Both the position numbers and the translations under genes were made by a program. Shown here piece after piece: positions 21,892 to 26,906 of a stretch of DNA of 64,000 bases. This stretch comes from Planctomycetaceae bacterium (GTDB taxonomy: Bacteria > Planctomycetota > Phycisphaerae > Phycisphaerales > UBA1924), in contig JAIYDA010000105.1 in NCBI GenBank assembly GCA_027487735.1, positions 16,385 through 80,384 on the forward strand, read 5' to 3'. Every line of letters starts with the position of its first letter. Positions within the stretch are counted from its first letter, which is position 1. The notes beneath the pieces are model-generated. The model did not search any database. It worked only from the letters and a program-made list of their open reading frames with translations, and was not told where the DNA came from.

Positions 21892-24800
21892 TCACGCCAC
21901 CCCCACCGCCAGCGCATCGCGATCGCTCAGCACGCCCCCGTCGCTCCGCACGCGCACCGTCCCATCGCGCTTCCAGCTTCGCTCGCAGCGCGGGAACTTG
22001 TCGTCATCGCGCAGGTCCAGCACGCTGGGCTCGGTCGCGCTCGCGTCGGCACGCACGATGCTCACGCCCAGCAGGTCGGCAAGCTCGACGAGATCAAACC
22101 CATCGAGCACGCCGCCAGCGTTGGGCAGCACCACGCCCGCATCCAGCGGGTTCTCGATGCCGCTGGCCTTCGCCTTCTCCAGCTTGCCCTGCGCCGCATC
22201 CAGCAGCACAAACACCTTGCTCCAGCGCTCGTCGGGCTTCACGCCAAACGCGCTCGCCACCTCGTCGCCCGTGCCGCGAGCACCAAGGAACGTGCGCAGG
22301 TGCACGCACGTGGTCGTGTCCGTGGGCGGCACCTTGTGCAGCGCGCGGAAGGCCTCATCCGCCGTGTGAGGCAGGAACGGGGCGAGCAACCGGCAGAGCC
22401 CATCGAGCATGTCCCACAGCACCGTCTGGCTCGCGCGCCGGCGTGGCGCATCGGGCTTGTCGCAATACATCCGATCCTTGATCGCCGCGAGATAGGTCGC
22501 GCTGAGCGTGCTGTTGCAGAAGTCAAACAGGGCTTTGTGCGCCGTCTGAAAGTCGTACCGCGTGAGCGCGCCAACCACGGTGCGCTCCAGCGCGTTGTAC
22601 TCGCCCAGCACCCACGCATCCAGGCTCGTGGGCGAGAGCGACGCAAGGCTCACGCAGTGCCCGTCCTGAGCAACGCCGCGCTCTGCCTGGGGAGTGCTCG
22701 TGCTGGGCACGAAGTCAAACAGGTTGCTCAGCATGAACCGCAGCGTGTTGCGCACCTTGCGATAGCTCTCGCCCGCCGTCGCGAAGAACGTCAGGTCCAC
22801 CTTGATGTCGTTCTCATACACCAGGCTGCTCACCCACCACCGCATCACGTCCACGCCAAACTCGTTCGTCAGGCTGTCCACCTCATACCGCGCCGCGTCG
22901 GGCCTGCTTTTGCTCAGCTTGCGCCCGTCTTTATCAACCATGAAGCCGTGCGTGAGCAGCGTGCGGAAGGGGGCTTGGCCCGTTGCGCCCAGCGCGGGCA
23001 GCAAGCTGAGCTGAAACCACCCGCGGTGCTGGTCGCTGCCTTCCAAATACAAATCCGCCGGATACCCCAGCCCACGAGCCCGCAGCACGCTGTTCCAGCT
23101 GCTGCCACTCTCAAACCACACGTCCAGAATGTCGCGCGTCTTCTTCAGGCTTGCATAGCCCCCCGCGAGCGCGTGCCTCATCTCGGGCGAGAGCTGCGGG
23201 TCCTTGCTCGCGTCGTAGCTCGCGAGCAACTGCTCGGGCGGCATCGCAAACCACGCATCGCTTCCCTTGCTGCGCAGCACCTCGCACACCGCGCGCACGC
23301 TCGCGCTCGTCAGCAGCACCGCGGGCTCCTCATCCGGATGAGCGTTCGCCGCGAGAGGCAGCACGAACGCCGGGATGGGCAACCCCCACGCACGCTGACG
23401 GCTGATGCACCAATCGGGCCTGCTCTCGAGCATGCCGCGCATGCGATTGCGCCCCCACTCGGGCACGAACTTCACCGGTGGCACGTCGCCACCACCAGTG
23501 CCCTCGCGCACCGCATGCAACGCCAGCTGCTGCATGCTCGCAGGCCTGCCCTGCCAATCGCGCAGGCTCTCGTCCGTGACGCTCACAAACCACTGCTGCG
23601 TGCACCGGAAGATGACGGGCGTCTTGCTGCGCCAGTCGTGCGGATAGCTGTGCATGAACTTCTGATCAAAGAACAGATGCCCGCTGTCGCGCAGGTGCTT
23701 CACCACCGCGTCGTTGGCCTTCCAGATGTTCACGCCCCGCAGCCACTCGGGCACGGTGCTGTCGTATGTGCCATCACCCTTCACCGGGCAATACACGGGC
23801 AGCGCGTGCTTCAGGCCTGTCTGATAGTCCTCGGTGCCGTGGCCCGGCGCGGTGTGCACCAGCCCCGTGCCATCCTCGGTCGTGACATAATCGGCAGGCA
23901 CGACACTCCAGATCTTTTCCAGGCTGCACGCGCGCTGCAACGCACACTTGGGCGTGCTCGTCACAAACGGATGCCTGTATCGCAGCCCCACGAGCTTGTC
24001 GCCCGTGGTCGTGGCGATCACGCTCACCTCTTCGCTCCGCGCCAGCTGCGTCACCTTCTCGATGAGCTTGCTTGCGAGCACCGTCACGTTCCCATCGATC
24101 CACACCAGCGCATACTCCACCTCCGGGTGCACCGCCACCGCGACGTTCGCGGGCAGCGTCCAGGGCGTGGTCGTCCAGATCATAAAGCACGGCTTCTGAT
24201 GAGGCCTCACGCCCGCGGGCAGCGCACGGCTCTTCTTCGCGTATGGGTCGGCTGGCTTCGCATCAGGCGCCGAAGCTTCGGTGCTTTCGTCGCCGCTTTC
24301 GTCATCCGCTTCGTCCTCGGCGCTCTGCTTCAGGCCAAACGCGTCATACACCGCGTCGGCGTCGAGTGCTTCAAAGTCGACGAATACGCTCGTGTCCTCA
24401 CGATCCTCATACTCCAGTTCGGCTTCCGCGAGCGCGGTCTCGTTCGCGATGCTCCAGTGCACGGGCTTCACAGCGCGATACACCAGCCCAGCCTTCAGCA
24501 GGTCCGCCAGCACTTCCAGCGTGCTCGCCTCATACTGCGGAGCCATCGTGAGGTAGGGGTTGTCATAGTCCGCGAGCGTGAGCAGCCGCTGCATCTGCCC
24601 CGCCTGCAGCTTGATGTACTTCTCCGCGTGCTGCTGGCACTCGCGCCGCACGATCATGTCGCGCTGGCTCACCTCCATCGTCGCGAGCTTCGCGAAGCTC
24701 CCTTTCTCCTGCATCGCCTGCATCACCTTGTGCTCGATGGGCAGGCCGTGGCAATCCCAACCCGGCACGTACGGCACGTTCTTCCCCAGCATCGTCTGGC

Positions 24801-25125
24801 TGCGCACCACAAAGTCCTTCAGGCACTTGTTCATGAGGTGCCCGAGGTGGATGCTGCCGTTCGCATAAGGCGGTCCATCGTGAAAGTTGAACGTGGGCGA
24901 TGCCTTGCGCTCCTCCCGCAGCTTGGCATACAGCCCAAGCTGCTGCCAACGCTTCAGGCTCTGCGGCTCGCTTTGCAGCAGGTTGGCCTTCATGTCAAAC
25001 TTCGTCTGCGGCAGGTTCAGCGTTTTGCGATAGCGGTTCTTGTCGGGCTTCGCCGCAGTCTGGGGCTCGGTAGTGGTCTGAGTCGTGGTCTGAGTCGGGG
25101 GCTGAGTCGGGGGCTGAGTGGTCAT
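21892..25125 (-). CDS. ileS: Isoleucyl-tRNA synthetase
   Basis: FHDGPPYANGSIHLGHLMNKCLKD (HIGH), DGRKLSKS (KMSKS-like), PGWDCHGLPIEHK. Start trimmed to MTTQPPTQPPTQ. Confidence 0.96.
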   Translation of the reverse strand: MTTQPPTQPPTQTTTQTTTEPQTAAKPDKNRYRKTLNLPQTKFDMKANLLQSEPQSLKRWQQLGLYAKLREERKASPTFNFHDGPPYANGSIHLGHLMNKCLKDFVVRSQTMLGKNVPYVPGWDCHGLPIEHKVMQAMQEKGSFAKLATMEVSQRDMIVRRECQQHAEKYIKLQAGQMQRLLTLADYDNPYLTMAPQYEASTLEVLADLLKAGLVYRAVKPVHWSIANETALAEAELEYEDREDTSVFVDFEALDADAVYDAFGLKQSAEDEADDESGDESTEASAPDAKPADPYAKKSRALPAGVRPHQKPCFMIWTTTPWTLPANVAVAVHPEVEYALVWIDGNVTVLASKLIEKVTQLARSEEVSVIATTTGDKLVGLRYRHPFVTSTPKCALQRACSLEKIWSVVPADYVTTEDGTGLVHTAPGHGTEDYQTGLKHALPVYCPVKGDGTYDSTVPEWLRGVNIWKANDAVVKHLRDSGHLFFDQKFMHSYPHDWRSKTPVIFRCTQQWFVSVTDESLRDWQGRPASMQQLALHAVREGTGGGDVPPVKFVPEWGRNRMRGMLESRPDWCISRQRAWGLPIPAFVLPLAANAHPDEEPAVLLTSASVRAVCEVLRSKGSDAWFAMPPEQLLASYDASKDPQLSPEMRHALAGGYASLKKTRDILDVWFESGSSWNSVLRARGLGYPADLYLEGSDQHRGWFQLSLLPALGATGQAPFRTLLTHGFMVDKDGRKLSKSRPDAARYEVDSLTNEFGVDVMRWWVSSLVYENDIKVDLTFFATAGESYRKVRNTLRFMLSNLFDFVPSTSTPQAERGVAQDGHCVSLASLSPTSLDAWVLGEYNALERTVVGALTRYDFQTAHKALFDFCNSTLSATYLAAIKDRMYCDKPDAPRRRASQTVLWDMLDGLCRLLAPFLPHTADEAFRALHKVPPTDTTTCVHLRTFLGARGTGDEVASAFGVKPDERWSKVFVLLDAAQGKLEKAKASGIENPLDAGVVLPNAGGVLDGFDLVELADLLGVSIVRADASATEPSVLDLRDDDKFPRCERSWKRDGTVRVRSDGGVLSDRDALAVGVA
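25074..25122 (-). repeat. 12-bp in-frame tandem repeat encoding PPTQPPTQTTTQTTTEP at the IleS N-terminus
   Basis: ggtctgagtcgt/ggtctgagtcgg/gggctgagtcgg/gggctgagtggt. Confidence 0.8.
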
Positions 25126-25484: not shown

Positions 25485-26045
25485 ATGATACGCGGGAGGC
25501 GAGGGAAGTGAGGGATGGAGGGATGAAGGGAAGAAGGGATGGAGGGGTAGAGGGAAGAAGGGACGAAGCACCAAGCGACCGCATCCTCGCCTCGAAGGGG
25601 CGCGCGGGTGTAGCCATGGGCAAGCGCAGCGCTGCCCGTGGAAACGACGCAGCGAATCAAGTCCGCCCCAACGCGGCGGAGGCACCTTCGCAGTTGACGC
25701 GCGATGTGAGCCTTCTCCTCTGCCCCTCTGGGGCAGTTCTCGCAACCCACACTTCTCCACGCGTTCCGCTGCGCTGCACGCGTGGCTACAACCCGTTGCC
25801 CCTTCGGGGCATACGCACACGCCGACGGCACGCGCGGATGCAGCGACCGGCAAGCTCAGTGCCGCCCGCCGACGCCTGTGCGAATCTCCGCCTGCCCAAC
25901 AGCACGCCTCCGCCCCTTCCCCACAACTCCAATCGCGACGCCCACCGCCCCACCCCGCCGCCCTACCCGACACTTCCACTATCACTCTCCGTCTCTCCCT
26001 CGTTCCCTCGTTCCCTTTTTCCCTCCATCCCTTCCTCCTCCACCC
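25485..26045. repeat. Composite foldback element A: purine-rich and pyrimidine-rich outer arms with inverted hairpin units inside
   Basis: GAAGGGATGGAGGG at 25533-25546 is reverse-complementary to part of 26012-26034; inner units at 25589-25641 and 25757-25811 are inverted relatives. Confidence 0.7.
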
Positions 26046-26156: not shown

Positions 26157-26906
26157 TTAGCGGCGACGGCGAGTCGCAACCAGACCGCCAAGGCCAACCA
26201 GCGCGAGGCTAGCGGGGCTGGGGATCACGGTGATCGCGACGCCACCGATTTCCTTCTTCTTGATGAACGCAACCGTGCCAGCTTCGCTCACGGCAACCAG
26301 CTGGTTGTCGATCGTGACGCGGACGCGGGTCGCCTGACCGCTGATGTTGTTCGCGGCGAGGTGGGCGCTCACGTCGATGTTCGCGCCACCCGTCCACAGA
26401 CCCAGGAAGGTCGGACCGGGGTTGACGAGGTTGAAGTCACCGCTCAGAGGAGCGAACACGCCGCTGCCGCTGAGGGTGGGCACCGTCACCGGTGCGCCGT
26501 TCACTTCGAGCACATCGACGAAGTAGGCAAGGCCAACCCACACGCGGGTGTTGGCGGTGCCACTGCCCAGCAGGGTGTAATCGCCCGACTCAGAGAACTG
26601 AATCGTGGGGATGAAGTTGCCAGAGCTCGACTGGATGGTCGTGGTCAGCGTGCCATCGGTGATGTCGGGCACGCCGTTCACCGAGTTGGCGCCAAAGCTC
26701 GTGGGGCTGAAGCGCAGCGAGTTGCCCGAGATCGTCGGTGCACCGAACAGCGGAATCTGCAGCGCGGGGTTCTCCGTGCTCTGGTCTTCCGTGATGCCGA
26801 GATAGCTCACGGTCGTCCCGGACAGGTTCCCGTAGGAAATCGGCGCAGCGCTCGCCACCGAACCGGCGACGGCCACAACGCCCACAACAGCGAAACGAGC
26901 CAGCAT
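26157..26906 (-). CDS. Secreted protein with PEP-CTERM-like C-terminus
   Basis: Signal peptide MLARFAVVGVVAVAGSVASAA; tail VIPSPASLALVGLGGLVATRRRR. Confidence 0.88.
   Translation of the reverse strand: MLARFAVVGVVAVAGSVASAAPISYGNLSGTTVSYLGITEDQSTENPALQIPLFGAPTISGNSLRFSPTSFGANSVNGVPDITDGTLTTTIQSSSGNFIPTIQFSESGDYTLLGSGTANTRVWVGLAYFVDVLEVNGAPVTVPTLSGSGVFAPLSGDFNLVNPGPTFLGLWTGGANIDVSAHLAANNISGQATRVRVTIDNQLVAVSEAGTVAFIKKKEIGGVAITVIPSPASLALVGLGGLVATRRRR

Follow-up and report, generated by a model that had tools for sequence, protein, structure and literature searches.

An inverted, gene-less element of probable REPIN type in a Phycisphaerales genome and its association with a Y1 transposase of subclass 1.2

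Anatomy and position of the element

The element described here lies in an intergenic gap of ~1 kb. On one side of the gap is an ileS-like gene and on the other a gene encoding an exported protein with a PEP-CTERM-like tail; judging from the ORF list, the element is downstream of the latter. Both genes belong to a 64-kb stretch of a Planctomycetaceae genome, called the window below (Table 1). An earlier note on this DNA had described two inverted copies of a structured unit, each with a small hairpin, a GTAG-containing spacer and a second hairpin. Both copies are present in opposite orientation, and their parts correspond to hairpin A, GTAG and hairpin B of the two arms of the element. From the outside inward, each arm consists of hairpin A (of the CGCCCC-gaa-GGGGCG type), 6-8 nt, GTAG, hairpin B, ~18-35 nt and a third hairpin, C. 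Stem B starts directly after GTAG, and the left stem B of the window copy contains one T.G mismatch. A further small hairpin in the same note, TGCCCC-tct-GGGGCA at 25721-25735, is real too and represents hairpin C, the inner one, of the right arm; its degenerate counterpart in the left arm (25663-25679) had been overlooked. In a comparison of the five inverted pairs of this genome, similarity ends 1-3 nt beyond hairpin A.

Table 1. Coordinates of the element, its parts and the neighbouring genes (positions in the window)
Feature	Position	Strand	Structure or remark	Basis
Whole element	25587..25813	.	~227 bp, inverted arms A-B-C...C'-B'-A', gene-less	Comparison of five pairs of the same genome and covariance-model matches
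Left hairpin A	25588..25602	+	CGCCT-CGAAG-GGGCG	Pairs covary in the family
Left GTAG guide tetranucleotide	25610..25613	+	5' foot of hairpin B	GTAG in 73 of 99 aligned arms
Left hairpin B	25614..25641	+	Stem CCATGGGCA / TGCCCGTGG, loop AGCGCAGCGC	Folding and family covariation
Left hairpin C, degenerate	25663..25679	+	CCGCCCC-AACGC-GGCGG	Aligned to intact CCGCCCC..GGGGCGG in other copies
Right hairpin C'	25720..25736	-	CTGCCCC-AGA-GGGGCAG	
Right hairpin B'	25757..25785	-	Stem CCACGCGT / ACGCGTGG, loop GCAGCGCAGCGGA	
Right GTAG guide	25786..25789	-		
Right hairpin A'	25797..25811	-	TGCCCC-GAA-GGGGCA	
Putative isoleucyl-tRNA synthetase gene (ileS-like)	21892..25125	-	ATG start at 25125; outside the element	Identity judged from sequence alone
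Putative gene for exported protein with PEP-CTERM-like tail	26157..26906	-	Outside the element	As for the ileS-like gene

Hairpins A and C were also considered as members of a separate genome-wide palindrome family. This was rejected, since the 64-kb window has an intact palindrome of this type only within the element (2 found, 1.25 expected) and none elsewhere. Outside the element, two purine-rich stretches of 45 nt, at 25511-25555 and 25988-26032, form an imperfect inverted repeat with 80% complementarity, ~30 nt to the left and ~175 nt to the right of it.

Folding and covariation of the arms

Folded as single-stranded DNA, the whole element reaches z = -4.8, and its two arms z = -1.6 and -3.8. 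The earlier note had also pointed out that the loop is kept while the stem varies on both sides; two window copies are too few by themselves to establish covariation, which needs a family alignment. Across 99 aligned arms, 97% of cells pair and 18 of the 21 pairs have changed on both sides, so that what was seen in two copies holds for the family. None of 500 shuffles reaches any of the five measures used, and pairing falls to 36-51% when the partner is slid in the alignment. Fitting the alignment to the model gives the structure an advantage, but the effect is large and the scans of paralogues reported below are independent of it. At the foot of stem B, the guide is GTAG in 73 of the 99 arms, GTCG in seven, GTTG in five and GTGG in one, and no motif comparable to GTAG was found on the 3' side of stem B in these arms.

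Copies in the same genome and in relatives

The genome that contains the window (3.67 Mb in 162 contigs) has further copies of the element. With a 241-bp query, BLAST returned nine places, the best two of which lie on other contigs (E values of 6e-43 and 1e-36); the best-matching copies of this genome are just 77-78% identical to the window copy. A covariance model (R1) built from 14 units finds 15 strong units, including five inverted pairs, with 26-42 nt between the arms, and several single units. These copies, like the folding, show that the pattern in the window is not due to chance. Among the relatives, the named ones of which are Phycisphaerales MAGs, arms were detected in 32 of the 61 genomes searched, with a maximum of 44 per genome. 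Such a search for further copies had been proposed in the earlier note, which had read the pattern as a sign of selection or copying at the level of structure; the copies, together with the stem covariation, support that reading.

Two relatives are informative as to how the copies are dispersed. In one of them (G019), near-identical copies have unrelated flanks, and the divergence of the flanks starts exactly at hairpin A. These dispersed copies are the best evidence of movement and suggest that the element is mobile. In another (G014), 15 inverted pairs are present, with an inner gap of mostly ~70 nt. Most of these pairs (L189-L202) lie within a larger repeat that is a composite of two miniature elements and has terminal inverted repeats similar to GGTGTAGTCCAAGATTGTGGCACTTGCGATG.

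A clean empty site was sought in same-genus genomes at the ileS locus and at a second locus, on contig C94. The element is absent there and no site is clean: synteny is broken on one side, so no insertion junction can be read. Adjoining the C94 element, a 290-nt stretch (L013, 2840-3134) shares 80-83% identity with its counterparts in three genomes of the genus, whereas its immediate surroundings are not conserved; it has no Rfam match.

The candidate parent locus and the association of transposase and arms

A search of the same genome for the Y1 transposase family gave two places, on contigs C8 and C76. The first holds an intact ORF of 150 aa (PF01797 at 6.8e-27), single-copy in this genome and flanked on both sides by inward-facing arms, 28 and 10 nt away; tnpB was not seen among the listed ORFs of this locus. 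Since the C8 gene, hereafter tnpA, carries the same inverted arms, the window element looks like the C8 element minus its gene, and C8 is its likely parent. With one copy of the gene, this genome gives no sign that the gene-carrying element itself moves. The second place (C76:5747-5974; L010, L017) encodes a fragmentary Y1-type protein with an NHVH motif, and the covariance-model search found no arms of this family near it.

The association of TnpA and arms extends beyond this genome. TnpA is present in 40 of 201 genomes of the order, and inward-facing arms occur on both sides at 26 of the 30 best close TnpA loci. Of the four exceptions, two (L056 and L063) are cut off by the start of their contig and show the one arm that could be visible there; at L049 just the left arm is present, and L052 has a rearranged set. 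Among 46 genomes searched for both partners, arms were detected in all 17 with TnpA vs. seven of the 29 without a detected TnpA (p = 2e-7); these seven possibly reflect loss of TnpA or the incompleteness of MAGs. Close TnpA copies with arms were also observed in MAGs labelled Rhizobiales/Hyphomicrobiales and in one labelled Vicinamibacteraceae (L128, L132, L141, L116), the contig of the latter being as long as contig C101 of G014; either horizontal transfer or mislabelled bins would account for them.

Class of the enzyme

TnpA-Y1 subclass 1.2 is recognised by a set of motifs that the C8 TnpA has as DHVH, WQ and Y---Q--HH; a length of 148-150 aa, the motif form DH[IV]H and a low copy number are further points in common between that subclass and the group studied here (PMC6006769). 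The protein passes the NCBIfam IS200 equivalog (NF033573; 78.2 bits, cut-off 55) and fails the REP_Tyr_transpos model (19.3 bits, cut-off 80). A canonical RAYT of class 2, with the motif Y-NP, was rejected on this score and on the presence of Y---Q--HH instead. In a phylogenetic tree that includes long branches, the C8 TnpA groups with all its relatives and with two motif-bearing Bacteroidota proteins (support 90/93), and four class 1.1 proteins and the E. coli RayT fall apart from this group. By motif and tree, the C8 enzyme belongs to TnpA-Y1 subclass 1.2. An AlphaFold model of TnpA (pLDDT 88) matches the ISDra2 and IS608 TnpA-DNA complexes with E values of ~1e-8, and the RAYT structure 4er8 with 6e-6. 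Subclass 1.2 has been described as having no REPs and generally no terminal structures, and as occurring mainly in Cyanobacteria and Bacteroidetes (Quentin 2018, PMC6006769); in contrast, the genes found here are flanked by arms.

Nature of the element

Taken together, these data indicate that the window element is very probably a non-autonomous single-strand DNA mobile element of the REPIN/MITE type, the ends of which are the inverted recognition arms of the C8 Y1 (HUH) transposase. According to this model, the element would become single-stranded during replication, and a TnpA dimer would bind hairpin B and the 5' GTAG guide in each arm. The guide would pick the cleavage dinucleotide, the TnpA tyrosine would cut both ends, and the DNA would be rejoined elsewhere. 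With inverted arms, each strand of the element would carry one arm, and hairpins A and C would frame the recognition hairpin B, A as the outer limit of the arm and C as the inner one. Hairpin binding on single-stranded DNA, guide-chosen cleavage and rejoining of the ends should be expected if TnpA behaves like its counterparts in IS608 and ISDra2 and like the E. coli TnpA_REP (PMC8266576). What the data show directly is the anatomy of the arms, their covariation, the parent locus, the association of transposase and arms across genomes, and the dispersed near-identical copies of one relative; that TnpA binds, cleaves and excises this DNA, what hairpins A and C do, and any activity of the system in this genome today are inferred.

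A rather improbable alternative, though the strongest of those considered, is that the system is an ordinary IS200/IS605 insertion sequence with its internal-deletion derivatives, and that no REP system is involved. The IS200 equivalog match would agree with this, as would the ISDra2 and IS608 TnpA proteins being the nearest solved structures and the existence of ORF-less copies with the same ends as the ORF-carrying locus. However, the arms are mutually inverted, whereas in IS200/IS605 recognition of the ends is confined to one strand; one TnpA gene stands against many arm copies, several of them single; and both the subclass 1.2 motif and the tree set the enzyme apart from class 1.1. The choice between an IS200/IS605 element and a REP element may be partly a question of naming, with the present element between both kinds.

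It is very unlikely that the arms are a structured RNA, such as a small RNA, an mRNA 3'-end stabiliser or a bidirectional terminator, with selection acting on the transcript. An intergenic site downstream of a gene and strong folding would suit such a role, and a secondary action on transcripts has been proposed for REPs of other genomes (PMC3733652). However, copies stand at many unrelated sites with variable inner spacers, and inverted arms tied to a transposase gene are not predicted by an RNA role. No Rfam family matches the window above threshold; the only candidate, a 14.9-bit match to a human lncRNA model at a relaxed threshold, is a chance match. The earlier note had left the agent unnamed. 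Since the arms flank the gene of a Y1 single-strand transposase, the structure in all likelihood serves a mobile element as its recognition site on single-stranded DNA, and a functional RNA is the less likely reading.

Least probable of all is that the C8 gene is a bystander to a canonical REPIN whose class-2 RAYT (Y-NP) is absent from the assembly, a scenario to which the textbook REPIN layout of inverted GTAG-foot hairpin pairs and the second Y1 protein on C76 would lend themselves, but which is opposed by the arms around the C8 gene itself and its homologues, by the scores of the C8 protein with the two family models, and by the lack of detected arms near C76.

Relation to known systems

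A close parallel to the element of REPIN type proposed here is provided by REPINs or BIMEs and their REPtrons, in which the RAYT is also called TnpA_REP (PMC3116915, PMC6006769). In both, a stem-loop has GTAG at its 5' foot, the units form inverted pairs whose GTAG faces outward, copies are dispersed, and arms flank a single-copy Y1 transposase gene. Unlike in REPINs, the arms here have two extra small hairpins, A outside and C inside, and the enzyme is not of class 2. The sequence features of REPs and REPINs are nevertheless present, with a GT[AG]G foot, inverted pairs forming a larger hairpin, and many dispersed copies. The system works like a REPIN/REPtron, but its enzyme is no canonical RAYT.

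With IS200/IS605 elements such as IS608 and ISDra2, the system shares the Y1 HUH fold, the catalytic residues and a guide tetranucleotide 5' of a subterminal hairpin; its ends, in contrast, are inverted and not direct, and there are many ORF-less copies per TnpA gene. A third likeness is to the GTAG-23 repeats of Thermomicrobium roseum, GTAG hairpins within small CCGSSCC(n3,4)GGSSCGG palindromes (PMC3733652), which may correspond to hairpins A and C. However, GTAG-23 has been described as an insertion into pre-existing palindromes, and the comparison made here is one of the repeats. GTAG repeats have also been noted in the PVC superphylum (Di Nocera 2013, PMC3733652), and that report may be a partial earlier sighting of the present system.

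A compact enzyme of 150 aa with well-defined arms, in ORF-carrying and ORF-less forms in many genomes, would constitute a second, independent test system for REPs, in which REP recognition and guide-directed cleavage could be tested. Few repeats are commoner than REPs in bacterial genomes, yet their mode of spread is not established. The present reading also suggests which DNA might be the substrate of a transposase subclass that had none on record, and it proposes a form that stands between insertion sequences and domesticated REP enzymes. In addition, it accounts for a class of structured repeats between genes of Phycisphaerales, which might otherwise pass for RNA genes.

Arms beside divergent transposases in several phyla

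A set of 40 divergent TnpA paralogues (38-57% identity), selected on the protein only, was scanned for arms in two ways. In a strict scan, which asks for TAG followed directly by a perfect 8-bp stem, 11 of the 40 have inward-facing arms on both sides, all 11 with a hairpin A; neither shuffles nor outward-facing matches on both sides gave any case. When any guide is allowed, arms are found on both sides in 18 of 40 and on at least one side in 33, vs. one and nine, respectively, of 291 in the pooled shuffled control. Outward-facing matches also occur in this second scan (both sides 3/40, any side 12/40), which makes single-sided matches weaker evidence. No inward-facing arms were found by it at four class 1.1 control loci.

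Arms of this layout flank divergent subclass 1.2 genes in Planctomycetota, Verrucomicrobiota, Acidobacteriota and on one Bacteroidota plasmid, with TAG, TTG or GAG as the guide. Of the two Bacteroidota proteins examined, both from plasmids, the TnpA of Persicobacter is flanked by arms, and the arm occurs at nine places on that plasmid; no arms were found for the TnpA of Bernardetia. On balance, it appears probable that the subclass 1.2 Y1 transposases of several phyla are a REP-mobilising lineage in their own right. Each enzyme would be matched by inverted arms of its own with three hairpins, and both guide and stem would vary in step with the enzyme lineage. If this is true, a transposase group previously thought to be without a DNA partner would have one. 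No prior report linking subclass 1.2 to REPs was found in a literature search whose reach mostly excluded subscription journals.

The two arms of a locus usually agree in their guide (24 TAG/TAG and 4 TTG/TTG), and guide types cluster moderately on the enzyme tree, with 18 label changes, a number as low as this being reached in one of 200 shuffles. In a minority TnpA lineage (L250, L252), the hairpins look direct rather than inverted and the guides are of AG type.
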